64,000 bases of DNA from an uncultured Lachnospiraceae bacterium (GTDB taxonomy: Bacteria > Bacillota > Clostridia > Lachnospirales > Lachnospiraceae): positions 37,919-101,918 of the forward strand of contig CACZBK010000017.1 of the NCBI GenBank assembly GCA_902779395.1. Direction: 5' to 3'. The position numbers and the translations under genes are program-made. Positions 47,390 to 53,628 of the stretch are shown here, piece by piece. Below the pieces are notes generated by a model. The model made no database searches. It had not been told where the DNA came from and saw only the letters and a list, made by a program, of their open reading frames with translations. How positions within the stretch are numbered: position 1 is the first letter of the stretch; every line of letters begins with the position of its first letter.

Positions 47390-47495
47390 CCGATCATGGG
47401 GACGGTTCTTCGGTTGTTTTTTTCCATAATCACCCTCATCAAGTCAAAAAAGCCTTATTTTTCAGGCCGATCAGAGAACCGTCCCCCCGGTTGAT
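47390..47495. repeat. Full copy of a ~105-bp inverted-core repeat element
   Basis: Two half-sites, each running CAACCG...TGATCGG on the minus strand, with opposite cores: GGGGACGGTTCT (complement at 47475-47486) and AGAACCGTCCCC (47398-47409), i.e. a perfect 12-bp inverted repeat, outer span 89 bases. It lies between two genes and supplies the last 13 codons and stop of the GNAT gene 47455-48249. Confidence 0.85.
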
Positions 47496-48249
47496 TCACT
47501 TCGTAAGCAGCATATTCATGATCAAATTCGTAGCCAAGTTTTTCCGACAGATGGACGGAATCAAGATTTGCCGCGTCCCAGCTTGGATATAAACCTTCTT
47601 CCAGACAGTTAAGGATCAACGCAGCCGAACATACTGTGGCAAGCCCTTTCCGTCTTTCATTCGGTGCAGTATCTACTTCAATCTCGATACCGTCCTTATA
47701 TCTTGTAAAAGATGAAGCTCCGGCAACGATCCGCCCTTCTTTCATTATCACCATACCGCGTCCAAGTTCAAGATATCTCTCCTTACTTTCAAATGACGAT
47801 ACAAAATCTCTTGTTACCGGATCATTCAGACACAACTCATAAATCTCAGCGTCAATAGCTTTCAACTCATATCCGGTGAACTTAGGATCATTTTTAAAAC
47901 CTGTGATCAGCGAATTCAAATACTCTTCATCAAATACAGTATCTTTTCTGATCGCATATCTGGTAACTCTTTTAGAATCCGGAAAGCATTCTTCTATCAT
48001 CGCTGACCAGTCTTCATTCTGCGGAACCAGAATACTGAAACCATCAGGTTTTCTCATAATAAGTTCTTTATCCGGTATGCCCGCAAGAAAGCCAAAGCAT
48101 CCGACATATGCCATTGCAGATTCAGGTGCCTCCGTATCCGTCACATATATCTTACCCATAACTTTCTGCAGACAGGAATAGAACAGCGTCTCCTCCCAGC
48201 CTGCAAACAGTTCTTCAACCTTTTTCATATCATCTATCTCATATATCAT
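47455..48249 (-). CDS. GNAT-family acetyltransferase (GNAT_acetyltran type)
   Basis: 264 aa. Long N-terminal half (MIYEIDDMKKVEELFAGWEE) without a CoA motif, then a GNAT core with IEVDTAPNERRKGLATVCSA and the C-terminal AANLDSVHLSEKLGYEFD. This is the larger acetyltransferase type seen in clostridia. The C-terminal tail NQPGGRFSDRPEK is encoded by the repeat element, so the original end has been replaced, outside the fold. Confidence 0.83.
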   Translation of the reverse strand: MIYEIDDMKKVEELFAGWEETLFYSCLQKVMGKIYVTDTEAPESAMAYVGCFGFLAGIPDKELIMRKPDGFSILVPQNEDWSAMIEECFPDSKRVTRYAIRKDTVFDEEYLNSLITGFKNDPKFTGYELKAIDAEIYELCLNDPVTRDFVSSFESKERYLELGRGMVIMKEGRIVAGASSFTRYKDGIEIEVDTAPNERRKGLATVCSAALILNCLEEGLYPSWDAANLDSVHLSEKLGYEFDHEYAAYEVNQPGGRFSDRPEK

Positions 48250-48269
48250 GAAACGATCATCTCCTATAA

Positions 48270-48539
48270 TTACATTTTTATCGGTTTTGCAAAATCAATC
48301 CTCAATAGTTTCTTATAATCAGGCTCAATGGTGGTGTTCTTTTTAATCTCTTCAGCTATATCAGCATATTTTTCCAGGATGCTCCGATACTGTTCCTCTG
48401 TAAGATACGCACACCATGCAAGTTCAACAGGTGAATAATCCCCCTCATGAAATACCCGGTATCCCGGCAATTTTTCAGCCAGCCTGGCCACCAGTGTGCT
48501 CTTTCCTGCCCCCTGTATACCTTCAATTAAATAATTCAT
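48270..48539 (-). pseudogene. Truncated P-loop nucleoside kinase-like gene
   Basis: 89 aa. MNYLIEGIQGAGKSTLVARL is a P-loop, followed by FHEGDYSPVELAWCAYLTEE. Related full-length proteins of about 270 aa carry lid and base-binding regions that are absent here; the frame ends with LLRIDFAKPIKM. An N-terminal fragment, presumably non-functional. Confidence 0.65.
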
Positions 48540-48560
48540 ACAATCCCCCGCTTTTTTCTT

Positions 48561-49586
48561 TTACAGAAGTGTTTCTAATATACGCTTTCCTTCCACTTCA
48601 CACACCAGCTCCTTACTGCCGTCTTCCTTATACATCACATATTGCCAGCGGAAACTATCACCTGTAATATCAGAAAAGACCCAGTAAGTTCTTTCTTCGT
48701 CAAGAACCTTCCCCTTTAGACTGTCGCCATCTTTTGTAAAACATAGTCTTTTCATGACATGATCACAGGTATAAACAACATCGTAACAATTCTTTTCACG
48801 GTTATACATGCGTAGAGAAGTTCCATACTCCCCATCCGGTTGCGGTGATATCTCCTTAGTACTTCTCGATGGAAAAATGAAAATATCCTGTATCCCGGTA
48901 CCTTCCAAGATCCTTCGGAATATCCACTCTCCTTTTACATGGCGCTTCTCACCATCCCATACATCATAATAATCACAATCCCAATCCCCTATGAGAGGCG
49001 CAAACCAATCATATTCATCCGGGATCTTATCCGTTTTTTCACTCAATAAAGCTTCTGCAAAGCTGTTATTCAATCTTTTCTTTATTCTTTCTATCAGATC
49101 TTTATATCTGTCATTATGTGTTTTGATCGCCTGATCAGATTCAACATAATTGATGAATCCCCTGTCGTCTACCCACTTATAATCGACCGTTTCTCCTTCC
49201 TGAAGAACAAGAGAATCCTTAGCTGCATCCACAGTCGCCAGAAATGAATAAAACATGCTGTGGCTTGGATCTCTGAAGGTATGACTCACCAGCTCCATTC
49301 TAAATGCAGTCAGCCCCGTCTCTTCAAAAAGTTCTCTCCTTGCCGCTTCAAACGGCTCTTCCCCTGCTATAGCAGATCCTCCTGCACTGGCCTCCCAATA
49401 TCCCGGATAAACATCTTTACTCATATCCCTTTTCGTCAAAAGATAAGTGCCATCTGTATGCTGAACAAGGATATCTACTACCATATGGTAATATCCATCA
49501 GGAATCTGCCTGTAATTTCCAAATTGCCTCTCCCAGGTCTTTCCTGTTCTCCTGCCTTCCTTATCGTATAAATCCCAGATTTCCAT
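48561..49586 (-). CDS. Nudix hydrolase fused to a lipocalin/DUF1579-like domain
   Basis: 341 aa from ATG 49586 (GGAGG 5 bases upstream). Residues 1-170: IDI-like Nudix domain (EIWDLYDKEGRRTGKTWER, AAGGSAIAGEEPFEAARREL, FEETGL). Residues 190-341: a beta-barrel-like domain (WFAPLIGDWDCDYYDVWDGE, GEWIFRRILEGTGIQDIFIF) resembling DUF1579-type lipocalin-like proteins. Possible partner domains for binding a hydrophobic ligand; substrate unknown. It is one of a run of small accessory enzymes on this strand. Confidence 0.78.
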   Translation of the reverse strand: MEIWDLYDKEGRRTGKTWERQFGNYRQIPDGYYHMVVDILVQHTDGTYLLTKRDMSKDVYPGYWEASAGGSAIAGEEPFEAARRELFEETGLTAFRMELVSHTFRDPSHSMFYSFLATVDAAKDSLVLQEGETVDYKWVDDRGFINYVESDQAIKTHNDRYKDLIERIKKRLNNSFAEALLSEKTDKIPDEYDWFAPLIGDWDCDYYDVWDGEKRHVKGEWIFRRILEGTGIQDIFIFPSRSTKEISPQPDGEYGTSLRMYNREKNCYDVVYTCDHVMKRLCFTKDGDSLKGKVLDEERTYWVFSDITGDSFRWQYVMYKEDGSKELVCEVEGKRILETLL

Positions 49587-49625
49587 CTTATCCTCCAAAT
49601 CTTTTTTCATGAATATAAAGGGAGC

Positions 49626-50093
49626 TTATTTTCTGATAATGTTCCAAACTTTATCTTTCACTATATACTGAAACTCATTGTATTTCCCATCCATCATCAC
49701 TTCCAGAAGTTCCGGGAGATCATCCACCATGTCCACCTTATCAAGATCCGAGTTGCTGACCCAATGCATGGCTCCCTCTTCCGAAGAGACAAGTTCTCCT
49801 GAATATTCGTCAGTCTCAAACAGAAAGACCACATACCGTCCTTTGGAATAATCACCGTCATAGATTGGAAACTGTTTTACTCCACACAGTTTCGGGTTCC
49901 GTATAATCAGGCCGGTCTCTTCCTTCATCTCACGGATCACTGCATCTACTATTGATTCACCGATCTCCACATGGCCGCCCGGAAGAGTATATCCTTTCCA
50001 GTCTTCGCTTTTCCTGTCCTGCATAAGTATCCTGTCCTTATCATGGATCAGACATAATACCGTAAATTCGGCAGTTTCCGTTCTATGACTCAT
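49626..50093 (-). CDS. Nudix hydrolase, 8-oxo-dGTP diphosphatase-like
   Basis: 155 aa. The Nudix box GGHVEIGESIVDAVIREMKE runs on into ETGLI and is intact, preceded by VLCLIHDKDRILMQDR. Small MutT-like hydrolase that probably cleaves an oxidised nucleotide or other nucleoside diphosphate derivative. It lies 39 bases downstream, in the same direction, from the 50113 lipoprotein gene's transcript. Confidence 0.88.
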   Translation of the reverse strand: MSHRTETAEFTVLCLIHDKDRILMQDRKSEDWKGYTLPGGHVEIGESIVDAVIREMKEETGLIIRNPKLCGVKQFPIYDGDYSKGRYVVFLFETDEYSGELVSSEEGAMHWVSNSDLDKVDMVDDLPELLEVMMDGKYNEFQYIVKDKVWNIIRK

Positions 50094-50112
50094 TTATACA
50101 CCTCCGAAAAAT

Positions 50113-50424
50113 CTATTTTGTATCCTTTTTATAAAATGTCCCATCATATACCCATATGGTATAGATATACTCATTTTCATCATACTCTTTTATGCTGTAT
50201 ACCTGCATGGGGTCAGTATCAACGTCCCTGAATTCAACTATTCCAAGCTGTTCTTTCTTATCCCATGTGATATTTACTCCCGGATTATTACACCGGGTAT
50301 ATGTATCCTCTCCGATAGAAATATACTCATGCTCCGATCCGTAGACCTCTCCTATCACTTTCCGGGAACCACAAGCCGTCAGCATTAAAACAAGTATCAA
50401 TATAAACAGTAATATTCTTTTCAT
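50113..50424 (-). CDS. Small lipoprotein
   Basis: 103 aa. Signal peptide MKRILLFILILVLMLTAC with lipobox LTAC, then a compact 85-residue domain with one further Cys (RCNNPGVNITW) and an aromatic C-terminal strand (YIYTIWVYDGTFYKKD). No known motif. Probably membrane-anchored outside the cell. Confidence 0.75.
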   Translation of the reverse strand: MKRILLFILILVLMLTACGSRKVIGEVYGSEHEYISIGEDTYTRCNNPGVNITWDKKEQLGIVEFRDVDTDPMQVYSIKEYDENEYIYTIWVYDGTFYKKDTK

Positions 50425-50494
50425 TTCCTATCCCCTGCCGTTCATAGCCCTGTCCACACCCAGATCGGTCACATACAGCCAGTAACAAAATCTG

Positions 50495-50643
50495 TCAGCC
50501 CAGATCTGTACGTTTCAAAAATTCTATGTATTCCGAAGCGCTCAGTCGCTCTTCTTTATATATAGCAGCCACTTCAATAACTCCTTATCATCTGCCTCTT
50601 CCATGGAACGGATGATCAATTCATCATCTTTATAATATACCAT
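50495..50643 (-). pseudogene. Broken GNAT acetyltransferase N-terminus
   Basis: GGAGG followed by ATG opens MVYYKDDELIIRSMEEADD, a typical GNAT N-terminus, and stops after 33 residues. In another frame the DNA then encodes VAAIYKEERLSASEYIEFLK followed by RTDLG and a stop, also typical of GNAT N-termini. Two different GNAT starts seem joined and both are truncated. No functional product expected. Confidence 0.55.
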
Positions 50644-50662
50644 TTTTATTATCCTCCACCTA

Positions 50663-50953
50663 TCACTTCATAATACGGTCAGCAACCTCTTCCACGGATA
50701 ATCCGCTGGTATTAATACAGTTATCCGCCTGTGAAAAATAACCCTGAGACTTTATCAATATATCCAGCCACTCCTCTGTACGCCACGGGCAGTCCTTATC
50801 AGCTGTCCATTGAGCTCTAAGTTTTTCTTCATCACAGATCAGGGTAACACTCTGTATCTCAAGCCCCGATTCTTTTATCCCTGCAGTCAGCTTTTCATAT
50901 ACCCATGCATCATCCATCAGTCTGCTTTCCGTAATAGATGTCCAATAAATCAC
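50663..50953 (-). pseudogene. C-terminal fragment of a small P-loop kinase
   Basis: 96 aa, with no ribosome site. LMDDAWVYEKLTAGIKESGL and LICDEEKLRAQWTADKDC followed by CINTSGLSVEEVADRIMK match the C-terminal half of shikimate-kinase-like AAA_33 proteins (adenine-binding and last helix). The P-loop half is missing; its place is taken by the end of the SAP-domain gene. The overlap with 50910-51335 marks the recombination joint. Confidence 0.55.
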
Positions 50954-51335
50954 CCAGTGTAAAAGCTTCGTCCCCGTTAGCCTTCACTGCTTTAGCAGTA
51001 GCTACCATATCCACATTAAACATAAAATTAGCTTCACCGGTTTGCTTTATAAAGAAATCCCGGAAACGCGGGCCGAAAGTAAAGCCACATTCTATAAACC
51101 CTGTATCCGGTGTCAATTCTTTAACAACAGGCTTTTTTCTCTTTACAGGAGCTTTCTTTTCCAGAAGGATCTTCTCTCCCGAAAAATAAGCTTCTATCAC
51201 TTTGTTCAGTTCGATCTTGCTTCCGTCCGCTTTAAGTCCGTGAGCCTTGCATATCCTTATCAGTTCCTCACGGTACCAATAGTATTTCAAGAATTCTTCA
51301 TAACTTTTGATAGTATCAAAATCAGGTCTGGTCAT
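50910..51335 (-). CDS. SAP-domain/DUF6434-like protein, C-terminally truncated
   Basis: 141 aa. SAP-like DNA-binding helices at LIRICKAHGLKADGSKIELN, a basic linker KKAPVKRKKPVVKEL, and the motif FRDFFIKQTGEANFMFNVDM. The C-terminus reads LGDLLDIYYGKQTDG and stops; relatives continue for 50-60 residues after IYYGK. The rest is replaced by a kinase fragment. The stop codon of this gene overlaps the start of the next one (51332 side, ATGA). Confidence 0.65.
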   Translation of the reverse strand: MTRPDFDTIKSYEEFLKYYWYREELIRICKAHGLKADGSKIELNKVIEAYFSGEKILLEKKAPVKRKKPVVKELTPDTGFIECGFTFGPRFRDFFIKQTGEANFMFNVDMVATAKAVKANGDEAFTLGDLLDIYYGKQTDG

Positions 51336-51829
51336 GTTAACGCCTCCAGTATGATCGCCGCATTTTCCGTGACAGATCTTTTTCCGTTGTCTATACAGAT
51401 ATCATATCCTTCTTTCGGCCACAGGTATTCAAGAGAAGCCTCTGCCGAACCCGGACATCTGTCTCCGCGTTCAGCCTCTCTCTTACGCAGTATCTCTATA
51501 TCACAGCTCACCCGGACCGAATAGGCCTTTCCGCCTTTTGCCGCATCCATCATTGCATCATAGATCCTTTCGCTTGTGATCGCATGATCGACAATGACTG
51601 TTCTACCCTGCTCTATCGCTCTTTTAGTGTCACGGCACATATCCGGCATGATCTCAAATATATCGTCCTCGTAGATAGTCTCTTTAGGATCGGTTCTCAT
51701 ATAATCATCTATGGATATGATAAGCGGATCCACATTCATTTCTTTTAATCTGTTTTGTAATTCACGTGAAAGTGTCGACTTTCCCGCCGAAGACGGTCCG
51801 TTTAACAATATCATCATTCTTTCCAGCAT
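51332..51829 (-). CDS. AAA-type small kinase, chloramphenicol-phosphotransferase-like
   Basis: 165 aa from ATG 51829, preceded by GGAGG. P-loop MMILLNGPSSAGKSTLSREL, then SIDDYMRTD, DHAITSERIYDAM, and VSCDIEILRKREAERGDR. The layout follows the CPT-like family (LNGxSSAGKS) whose type member phosphorylates chloramphenicol in its producer; close relatives act on other small molecules. The 3' end overlaps the downstream SAP gene by 4 bases. The upstream ribosome site lies immediately after a repeat element. Confidence 0.78.
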   Translation of the reverse strand: MLERMMILLNGPSSAGKSTLSRELQNRLKEMNVDPLIISIDDYMRTDPKETIYEDDIFEIMPDMCRDTKRAIEQGRTVIVDHAITSERIYDAMMDAAKGGKAYSVRVSCDIEILRKREAERGDRCPGSAEASLEYLWPKEGYDICIDNGKRSVTENAAIILEALT

Positions 51830-51841
51830 AATTTCCTCCAC

Positions 51842-51945
51842 CAATCATGGGGACGGTTCTGCGGTTGATTTTTGCCATTTTTCCATTTCAAAATCCCCGC
51901 AGCCCCTCATTTTTCAAGCCGATCAAAGAACCGTCCCCCCGGTTG
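51842..51945. repeat. Second full copy of the ~105-bp inverted-core repeat
   Basis: Cores GGGGACGGTTCT (51849-51860) and AGAACCGTCCCC (51927-51938) form a perfect 12-bp inverted pair with outer span 90 bases, matching the copy at 47390-47495. The spacer differs more than the half-sites. The element sits between hflX and the kinase gene and supplies the final codons (GGTVL) and stop of hflX. Confidence 0.85.
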
Positions 51946-53161: not shown

Positions 53162-53224
53162 ATATATTTCCTCCGTTTGATCTGTGTTTCGTTAGTTATT
53201 CTGAACAGTTAGTTTTTCCTCTTA

Positions 53225-53262
53225 TGTGTGAAACCATAGATCAAAGGCTTTAGTCTCACACA
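53225..53262 (-). promoter_or_regulatory. Leader hairpin directly after the second uORF of hflX
   Basis: TGTGTGAGACT pairs with GGTTTCACACA through 11 pairs including two G-U. It begins two bases after the uORF2 stop codon, so a ribosome paused on uORF2 would change its folding. No T run follows, so it is not a terminator. Confidence 0.55.
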
Positions 53263-53263
53263 G

Positions 53264-53296
53264 TCAGATGTTCCTCAGTCTGATAAAATTGATCAT
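53264..53296 (-). CDS. Leader peptide uORF2 upstream of hflX (MINFIRLRNI)
   Basis: 10 codons after a very strong ribosome site, GAGGAGGAAGGTAAAA. The peptide MINFIRLRNI contains Arg-Leu-Arg, the +x+ motif at which macrolide-bound ribosomes stall in ErmDL-type (MRLR) leader peptides. It lies 102 bases upstream of hflX, between the leader terminator and a hairpin. Function as a drug-sensing leader is inferred from motif and position. Confidence 0.6.
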   Translation of the reverse strand: MINFIRLRNI

Positions 53297-53340
53297 TTTT
53301 ACCTTCCTCCTCTCAACGATTGCTCCTCACCTGCGTATGT

Positions 53341-53376
53341 ATAAAAACAGCCCCGATACCTTCCGGCATCAGGGCT
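53341..53376 (-). terminator. Leader terminator (attenuator) of hflX
   Basis: AGCCCTGATGCC-GGAA-GGTATCGGGGCT, a 12-bp stem with only two G-U pairs and a GGAA tetraloop, then GTTTTTAT. It lies about 185 bases after the promoter start point and 180 bases before hflX, in the hflX direction, and after no complete gene, so it is an attenuator rather than an operon end. Confidence 0.85.
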
Positions 53377-53434
53377 TAACAGCATAAACAATATCTCAAA
53401 TATCAGGGTGATCCCAAACAAGAAATATCCGCTA

Positions 53435-53506
53435 TTATACACTTCCACAGGAGGTATGATCTTTACTATAGGTGTTTTCAAAAGATTTTTTAATGCGGAT
53501 AAACAC
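53435..53506 (-). CDS. Leader peptide uORF1 upstream of hflX
   Basis: 23 codons from a GTG with AAAGGAGG 9 bases before it; begins MFIRIKKSFE, basic, and ends CGSV. Its ribosome site AGGAGGTAT (53513-53521) is perfectly complementary over 9 bases to ATACCTCCT (53449-53457) inside its own 3' coding part. Translation would therefore open or close this stem. A 75-codon frame starting at the overlapping ATG 53526 runs through the terminator and is not considered real. Confidence 0.6.
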   Translation of the reverse strand: MFIRIKKSFENTYSKDHTSCGSV

Positions 53507-53567
53507 GGTTCTATACCTCCTTTCATAAATTTCCGACTTGGATGAAAATAATCCTTACACTTTTCGA

Positions 53568-53596
53568 ATTATACAGACTCAATGATGATATGTCAA
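53568..53596 (-). promoter_or_regulatory. Consensus promoter of the hflX leader
   Basis: TTGACA (53591-53596), 17-base spacer, TATAAT (53568-53573), both exact consensus. Transcription should start near 53561, giving a leader of about 400 bases. It sits just after the GNAT-rsgA gene, so hflX is an independent transcript. Confidence 0.88.
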
Positions 53597-53628
53597 TCCT
53601 CATTGATTCCAAATAAACTTGCGCCGGA

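Follow-up and report, generated by a model that had tools for sequence, protein, structure and literature searches.

Attenuated hflX genes are known from two bodies of work. In Listeria monocytogenes, hflXr (lmo0762) with its leader rli80 responds to lincomycin and erythromycin, and its 14-amino-acid leader open reading frame (ORF) contains Arg-Leu-Arg (R-L-R), termed a signature of macrolide leader peptides (PMC6310831). The upstream ORF (uORF) family uORFC-6-1 is described with 51 representatives, predominantly from Bacillales and located primarily before hflX (PMC8632094). Here we analyzed a 64,000-nucleotide (nt) stretch, hereafter the window, of contig CACZBK010000017.1 from an uncultured Lachnospiraceae bacterium (genome G000), in which an hflX leader containing two uORFs, uORF1 and uORF2, is read on the minus strand from 53600 to 53162. 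Like rli80, it places an anti-antiterminator, an antiterminator and a terminator before hflX and includes a short ORF with R-L-R, but it has two uORFs (23 and 10 codons) and uses a uORF's own ribosome site as the anti-antiterminator (PMC6310831). Listeria carries a second hflX copy (lmo1296), whereas one was found here, so the gene lies outside the extra-copy definition of HflXr (PMC6310831). Shared with uORFC-6-1 are a uORF with conserved Arg-Leu-Arg before hflX and a covarying RNA structure (PMC8632094); R-L-R or R-I-K occurs in the uORF1s and R-L-R in uORF2. By its description, however, the uORFC-6-1 structure lies wholly 3' of the start codon, while here the Shine-Dalgarno (SD) sequence 5' of the start codon forms one strand, and that description mentions no second uORF (PMC8632094). 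Both rli80 and uORFC-6-1 provide precedent for one RLR uORF with an attenuator in front of hflX; the novelty lies in how the switch is built, how far it has spread and the proposed serial arrangement of two gates. Full-text searches of open-licence papers gave, by title and abstract, no paper on hflX or ABC-F leaders of this design in Lachnospiraceae.

We propose that ribosomes on the leader probably operate two successive gates, one acting on transcription through uORF1 and one on translation through uORF2. The elements claimed in an earlier, sequence-only reading (promoter, uORF1, complementarity between its SD and tail, terminator, uORF2, hairpin and hflX) were all recovered where it had placed them (Table 1). 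Its exact sigma-A promoter matches the consensus at every position; exact TTGACA-TATAAT pairs with 16-18 spacing occur twice in the whole window against 0.03 expected, the other copy (4411-4383, minus strand) lying just 5' of a tRNA-Pro gene (4372-4299). The 9-base uORF1 SD, AGGAGGTAT, is indeed perfectly complementary to ATACCTCCT in the uORF tail, a pair found at this spacing once in the window and in 0/100 shuffles. The claimed terminator was also confirmed, with its 12-bp stem, GGAA loop and T tract GTTTTTAT. The tail (segment 2) can pair either with the SD (segment 1, helix 1:2) or with the terminator loop (segment 3, helix 2:3). Promoter, uORF and intrinsic terminator thus precede the gene in order, with translation suggested by coding constraint, and comparative and predicted structures make antiterminator and anti-antiterminator mutually exclusive, segment 2 being part of both. 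By its sequence, the leader resembles transcription attenuators of the ribosome-mediated type. The downstream protein scored 443.6 bits against TIGR03156 (cut-off 216.75), and HflX chains topped the solved-structure list in a structure search. It is the sole full-length HflX match in the 97% complete genome, the remaining matches reaching at most 31% identity over only part of the protein.

Region 53531-53349 folds strongly (-55.4 kcal/mol, z = -4.04, equalled by 0/200 shuffles), as would a ligand-binding riboswitch or a protein-binding leader. We rejected such an element as very improbable. An Rfam scan of the leader yielded no family at gathering score, the conserved parts are an ORF, an SD and an SD complement with coding-type constraint, and the aligned leaders differ in both length and letters between uORF and terminator. 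Sub-threshold Rfam matches (best snoTBR7, 28.2 bits versus 45, E 0.0064) were taken as chance.

Comparative evidence for the switch came from 27 aligned leaders (A5) located before hflX (5), ABC-F (19) or ABC exporter genes (3); many are close relatives, so cell counts do not represent independent events. Not counted were L194 (leader not extracted), L206 (partly masked), weak matches (L182-L185, L190-L193, L207), genus-search matches with E >0.01 and ten divergent leaders with a different terminator or anti-SD (rsgA of G000 and G012, hflX of G019, exporters of G645, G527, G507, G734, G323, G149 and G351). Helix 1:2 and the terminator were paired in 92.1% of 567 cells. Eight pairs, in 40 cells, changed on both sides, compared to 15.7 +/- 4.3 cells in shuffles (0/500 reached 40) and at most 14 in slid controls. 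At the outer position of 1:2, 11 leaders have AU and 11 have GC. Nine of the ten divergent leaders retain a perfect SD:tail helix of 6-9 bp, G019 having none, and they include further two-sided changes (CGAGGT/ACCTCG, GGAGGC/GCCTCC). Antiterminator helix 2:3, which joins tail TACCTCC(T/C)GG to CCGGAAGGTA, was paired in 98.1% of 216 cells (slid maximum 53.7%), and in none of the 27 leaders (87-118 sites each) did another site complement segment 2 better than segment 3. This helix is mostly invariant, with one pair seen as CG, UG, GC and UA; on 27 rows, three measures were reached by 20-23/500 shuffles and the covariation score by 6/500. The leader covariance to be expected from the sequence-only reading is therefore present for 1:2 and the terminator, while 2:3 is kept with modest covariation. 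The idea of a conserved GGAA tetraloop was weakened: two members have CGCA or AGTA and keep the antiterminator pairing.

Table 1 Features of the hflX leader and gene in the window
Feature	Position	Strand	Evidence
Sigma-A type promoter, TTGACA-17-TATAAT	53568..53596	-	12/12 consensus match
uORF1 SD AGGAGGTAT, segment 1 (putative anti-antiterminator)	53513..53521	-	Helix 1:2 counted over 27 leaders
uORF1, GTG start, 23 codons + stop, peptide VFIRIKKSFENTYSKDHTSCGSV, +X+ motif R-I-K	53435..53506	-	
Segment 2, ATACCTCCT, spans uORF1 Thr-Ser codons	53449..53457	-	CCTCC invariant in 27/27 aligned leaders
Central helix, 5' strand TAATAGCG	53430..53437	-	RNAalifold on 9 leaders; 88.9% of cells paired
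Central helix, 3' strand TGCTGTTA	53377..53384	-	RNAalifold on 9 leaders
Intrinsic terminator hairpin, 12-bp stem, GGAA loop	53349..53376	-	Covariation over 27 leaders
T-rich tract GTTTTTAT, 3' of terminator stem	53341..53348	-	
Segment 3, CCGGAAGGTA, terminator loop and flanks, putative antiterminator partner of segment 2	53357..53366	-	
uORF2 SD AGGAGGAAGG	53302..53311	-	
uORF2, MINFIRLRNI, 10 codons, +X+ motif R-L-R	53264..53296	-	Coding pattern in 3/35 genus genomes
Hairpin immediately 3' of uORF2 stop, arms GTGTGAGAC / GTTTCACAC	53225..53262	-	
CCTTTGATCT in hairpin loop, predicted alternative partner of hflX ribosome-site region	53238..53247	-	
AGATCAAACGG, overlapping hflX SD GGAGG (53174-53170)	53173..53183	-	
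hflX, GTPase HflX, 412 amino acids	51923..53161	-	TIGR03156

The two uORFs have a common FIR(I/L)(K/R) core (VFIRIKK... in uORF1, MINFIRLRNI in uORF2), and each contains an R/K-X-R/K tripeptide (+X+). Among six FIR-type uORF1s differing in DNA, codons 2-7 show 37 synonymous versus 21 nonsynonymous pairwise codon differences and codons 8-15 show 8 versus 86, the pairs not being independent. By this substitution pattern, uORF1 is coding, with its start constrained as peptide and its middle free. The tail is constrained as RNA: across the aligned leaders, CCTCC stands in the same reading frame of a uORF of 22-24 codons (27/27), but the exporter leaders L227 and L228 encode the SD complement in a different frame, which argues for constraint at the RNA level. 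A uORF followed by a terminator is also typical of amino-acid attenuators, in which the uORF gauges a charged tRNA. This explanation was rejected as scarcely credible here, as the uORF has no single-codon run, the middle of the peptide is as variable as the counts above indicate, and the downstream genes encode HflX, ABC-F proteins and ABC exporters rather than biosynthetic enzymes.

The early R-I-K of uORF1 belongs, by sequence, to a known macrolide-arrest class. The leader peptide ErmDL, with an R-L-R near its N terminus, controls ermD, and the ribosome stalls with the middle-residue codon in the P site (PMC8298421). uORF1 and uORF2 similarly carry +X+ near their N termini, from which arrest is predicted by analogy (PMC8298421). 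All five aligned hflX leaders have an early +X+, compared to 8/19 ABC-F and 1/3 exporter leaders (14/27 in total), and the diverged hflX leader of G019 has one as well. The six uORF1s directly before hflX contain R-L-R (two) or the related R-I-K (four). Among 308 SD-preceded short ORFs from the window and 12 fetched loci, 12 encode [FI]IR[ILMV][RK] within the first 12 residues, each lying in the leader or a gap of an hflX or ABC-F operon; since these loci were picked for hflX or a related leader, this is not a genome-wide rate. Early, peptide-level conserved +X+ hence characterizes the hflX leaders and not the RNA family as a whole.

Three observations count against reading the motif as a dedicated macrolide sensor. 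A bare +X+ is frequent (51/308 of the short ORFs, first ten residues); 13/27 aligned leaders lack an early one, for example MIISLRT, MIVTKRF and MIIIVRK before ABC-F genes; and the RLR of ErmDL is critical for telithromycin but matters much less for erythromycin (PMC8298421), so that +X+ is no proof of an erythromycin response. Because +X+ occurs in 5/5 hflX leaders but only 14/27 overall, the family may sense more than macrolides. One could go further and suppose that the leader responds to any slowing of initiation or early elongation, as caused by many drugs, rather than to macrolides, with +X+ as just one route to an early stall. The near-equal number of leaders without the motif would suit this idea, the mechanism requires just a ribosome held close to the start codon, and Listeria hflXr answers lincomycin besides erythromycin (PMC6310831). 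We regard it as a serious possibility but a somewhat doubtful one, given that +X+ is kept, with synonymous codon changes, in 6/6 uORF1 leaders directly before hflX.

For the transcription gate, we envisage that without drug a ribosome traversing uORF1 would cover the tail codons, allowing the terminator to form; once this ribosome is gone, the tail (ACCTCC) would fold onto the uORF1 SD, the terminator would again form and RNA synthesis would stop. With a macrolide-type drug, the ribosome would stall at FIR-I-K, with codon 5 predicted in the P site and codon 6 in the A site. Held near the start, it would occupy or crowd the SD and leave the tail bare to pair with the terminator loop, so that polymerase reads on. 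We infer this stalling, induction, read-through and order of events from the leader's parts: the proposal of the sequence-only reading that stalling lets polymerase pass the terminator fits the coding constraint on uORF1, the arrest-class motif, the covariation of 1:2 and terminator, and the kept 2:3 helix. One 2:3 mismatch stands at the identical position in all 27 leaders, and 1:2 should therefore outcompete 2:3 as long as no ribosome occupies the SD. For RNA 3' of a codon-5 stall and extending 2 nt beyond AGGT, the predicted probability of 2:3, P(2:3), was >=0.79 in 25/27 leaders.

Several results weigh against this gate. The preference for 2:3 is weak in G106 (0.20) and G409 (0.65), and G435 lacks one 2:3 pair. 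With RNA extending 6 nt beyond AGGT, P(2:3) fell to <=0.15 in 27/27 leaders, and full stalled-state folds formed the terminator in 11/12. As the completed terminator beats 2:3 at equilibrium, antitermination must be kinetic, decided as polymerase crosses the T tract. An SD at -14 to -6 may also lie beyond the physical reach of a ribosome stalled at codon 5. Covariation of 2:3 is modest, with 1/8 pairs changed on both sides (251/500 shuffles reach that). Shuffle support was 11-55/500 on 25 rows and 40/500 on 13 rows, and the first 9 rows, on which the central helix was also evaluated, gave no 2:3 covariation including that helix (152-301/500). For 1:2 and the terminator, the number of pair types was not raised (338/500 shuffles).

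uORF2 lies 3' of the terminator, and folding makes hflX translation a likelier target of its action than polymerase. The attenuator of the sequence-only reading thus suits uORF1 better than uORF2. Folds predicted for G000, G012 and G024 keep the hairpin closed, with the hflX SD bases unpaired (0.49-0.98), when a ribosome is stalled at uORF2 codon 7. With the ribosome at the uORF2 stop instead, the 5' arm of the hairpin would be covered and CCTTTGATCT (CCATTGATCC in G024) freed; this segment is predicted to pair with AGATCAAACGG (GGATCAAATGG in G024), which overlaps the hflX SD, the first two SD bases then being unpaired at 0.00-0.18 in 3/3 genomes. Because the folds tie uORF2 to the hflX ribosome site in all three, uORF2 may gate hflX translation. 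A ribosome finishing uORF2 would open the hairpin, whose loop would pair beside the hflX SD; in the presence of drug, a ribosome stalled at FIRL-R would keep the hairpin closed and the SD free. The HflX made would then recycle drug-blocked ribosomes, as proposed in Listeria, and could so contribute to drug tolerance.

Points on the other side are that the translation gate is predicted from three related sequences, among which one compensatory change is clear, and that the hflX SD is predicted to be mostly open even without a ribosome (0.47-0.97). Such openness would fit a leader in which uORF1 and the terminator alone are functional, hflX is translated without regulation, and uORF2 with its hairpin is left over from the intergenic region that followed an ABC-F gene since lost. 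uORF2 is also missing from the two closest relatives (absent in G017, a repeat in its place in G032). We nevertheless consider this rather unlikely: uORF2 is the sole leader ORF left in G012, which lacks uORF1 and the terminator; MINFIR(L/M)RNI is kept in G024 with synonymous changes; a similar ORF, MVIFIRLKDI, follows ABC-F in G010; and the alternative helix is maintained through one compensatory change.

The proposed serial gates differ from described systems with related logic. The ABC-F genes cplR of Clostridioides difficile and vmlR of Bacillus subtilis are likewise uORF-controlled by joint transcriptional and translational attenuation, but each is described with one very short uORF (MR[I/M] and MIN, respectively), while here each gate would have its own uORF and RNA parts (PMC10201436, PMC9226507). 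In cplR, a single hairpin serves as both terminator and SD lock, unlike here (PMC10201436). ermBL and ermBL2 resemble our locus in that two leader peptides are needed to induce one resistance gene, yet they are described as translational attenuation, with no mention of a transcription gate such as the one proposed here (PMC8274638).

To follow the locus through relatives, we used a genus set of 35 genomes including the source genome G000. HflX was matched at E<=1e-60 in 29 of these, with close orthologues (78-100% identity) in 12. The uORF1-terminator unit stands directly 5' of hflX in G000, G032, G017, G030 and G020 and, diverged, in G019; in G024 and G016, an ABC-F gene comes between it and hflX. 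uORF2 is located 5' of hflX in G000, G012 and G024. Among the 12 orthologues, neither element was found upstream of hflX in G015 and G023. At the latter locus (L017/L074, = L085), where no leader was found upstream of hflX, the gene begins 9 bases after an ORF that by eye resembles a reverse transcriptase/maturase. In G010, an ABC-F gene with a different leader is followed by the uORF2-like ORF, a kinase-like ORF (by eye) and hflX. A further point against a serial design is that the tandem of uORF1 and uORF2 occurs only in G000 among the 12 orthologues. The two-uORF layout, which to the sequence-only reading looked distinct, differs from the known attenuators with a single RLR uORF; conservation in related leaders extends to the frame and length of uORF1 but not to the tandem.

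G024 has the order uORF1-ABC-F-uORF2-hflX and G016 the order uORF1-ABC-F-hflX. In the HflX protein tree, G024 falls outside G012, G017, G000 and G032, and G016 groups with G030 and G020, some forks being weak; the DNA tree did not settle the position of G024. From these arrangements, the tandem layout seems to be a collapsed operon in which ABC-F was lost between two leaders, the simpler account; the alternative is two ABC-F insertions at the same place. Most of these genomes keep a related ABC-F elsewhere (74-80% identity in G000, G032, G012, G030 and G020; none in G017 at E<=1e-80), so anything lost would be the copy at the hflX locus.

A contig-wide hflX scan covered the best 80 of 281 loci, with <=1.5 kb viewed upstream (less at several loci), and overlooks any leader that, as in L083, stands in front of a gene further upstream. 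Within these 80, a +X+ uORF with a terminator in the gap 5' of hflX occurred only in L076, L077, L081, L082 and L084 and uORF2 in L078 and L079. All uORF1 and uORF2 loci fell within the 78-99% clade, whose loci are on the same contigs as the G genomes and thus not independent. Short +X+ ORFs in L091, L095, L106 and L153 were set aside because they had no terminator.

Leader members beyond hflX were found with covariance models, R1 built from nine leaders and R2 from thirteen without antiterminator pairs. Leader-DNA BLAST against 299 family genomes (two from the genus), by contrast, gave 17 genomes at E<=0.01, in which the matches, except in the own genome, spanned only ~22-53 bases. The genus search returned 10 matches at E<=1.4e-16. 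ABC-F leaders in other genera were detected in 9/299 genomes (E<=0.01) and in 12/397 in a further search, some weak matches being set aside. The genus of G222 had a match in 13/22 genomes, and an order-level search gave 9/392 genomes at E<=0.001, 9/9 in the same family. The uORF1 leader module is, on this evidence, not specific to hflX but shared with ABC-F and ABC-exporter genes across several genera of the family. Model scans of three among the 19 ABC-F proteins gave a ribosomal protection-like ABC-F model as best match (281.9-320.3 bits, under the cut-off of 380); the ABC exporter label also rests on model matches under cut-off. No match to the leader was found among plasmids. A plain SD...anti-SD spacing pattern was discarded as unspecific (18 matches in the own genome versus 26 for a reversed control).

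In other genera, exporter-like loci L225-L228 (G645, G527, G507, G734), L186 (G323), L189 (G149) and L188 (G351) have SD-locked uORFs such as MIIRVRLNN, MMIKLRTMK and MFKFRKLD, with the same 1:2 design and differing terminators or anti-SD letters. A leader of another kind precedes other ABC-F genes of the genus (L214-L220, L222 and L221, the latter on contig C20 of G000). It combines a hairpin that looks like a terminator with an ORF of four codons, MRIR or MFIR by eye, similar to the MR[I/M] uORF of C. difficile cplR (PMC10201436).

A broader account, which we offer tentatively as falling a little short of an even chance, is that the leader is a portable module exchanged among hflX, ABC-F and ABC-exporter genes, its sensor N terminus replaced according to the drug. 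At the present locus, it would be stacked with an independent FIRLR uORF, such that production of HflX would require two separate ribosomes to register the drug, the succession of transcription and translation gates having been created by ABC-F loss.

In the neighborhood, the upstream GNAT-RsgA fusion gene (55071-53629, minus strand) has its own attenuator of the same design at 55468-55270 (minus strand), comprising a promoter, uORF MMLTVKFEIAIEYSMKTSVCAY, SD CGAGGT facing tail ACCTCG, and a terminator. This uORF is kept in G012 with one substitution (V to M); as it has no +X+ motif, the leader may sense another drug. A dispersed inverted repeat, GGGACGGTTCT...AGAACCGTCCC, has 9 matches with <=1 mismatch against 0.51 expected, with sites at 51937-51850, 47485-47399 and 55223 of the window, in the L008 (G032) leader and before hflX in L013 (G010). 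One copy overlaps the end of hflX, supplying its last codons, and another is the repeat that replaces uORF2 in G032. The region 3' of hflX, at 47455-51844, encodes a kinase resembling chloramphenicol phosphotransferase together with a NUDIX and a GNAT protein (by Pfam) and has the look of a small-molecule modification cluster.

If the switch operates as proposed, antibiotic-inducible ribosome rescue would not be confined to Listeria and Bacillales but extend to ruminant-gut Lachnospiraceae, and a single RNA module would serve three kinds of likely drug-response gene. With a variable peptide N terminus on a fixed RNA tail, the family would constitute a natural panel of nascent peptides against drugs. 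Its natural variants, with uORF1 only, uORF2 only, both, or ABC-F in between, would make the value of serial gates testable.
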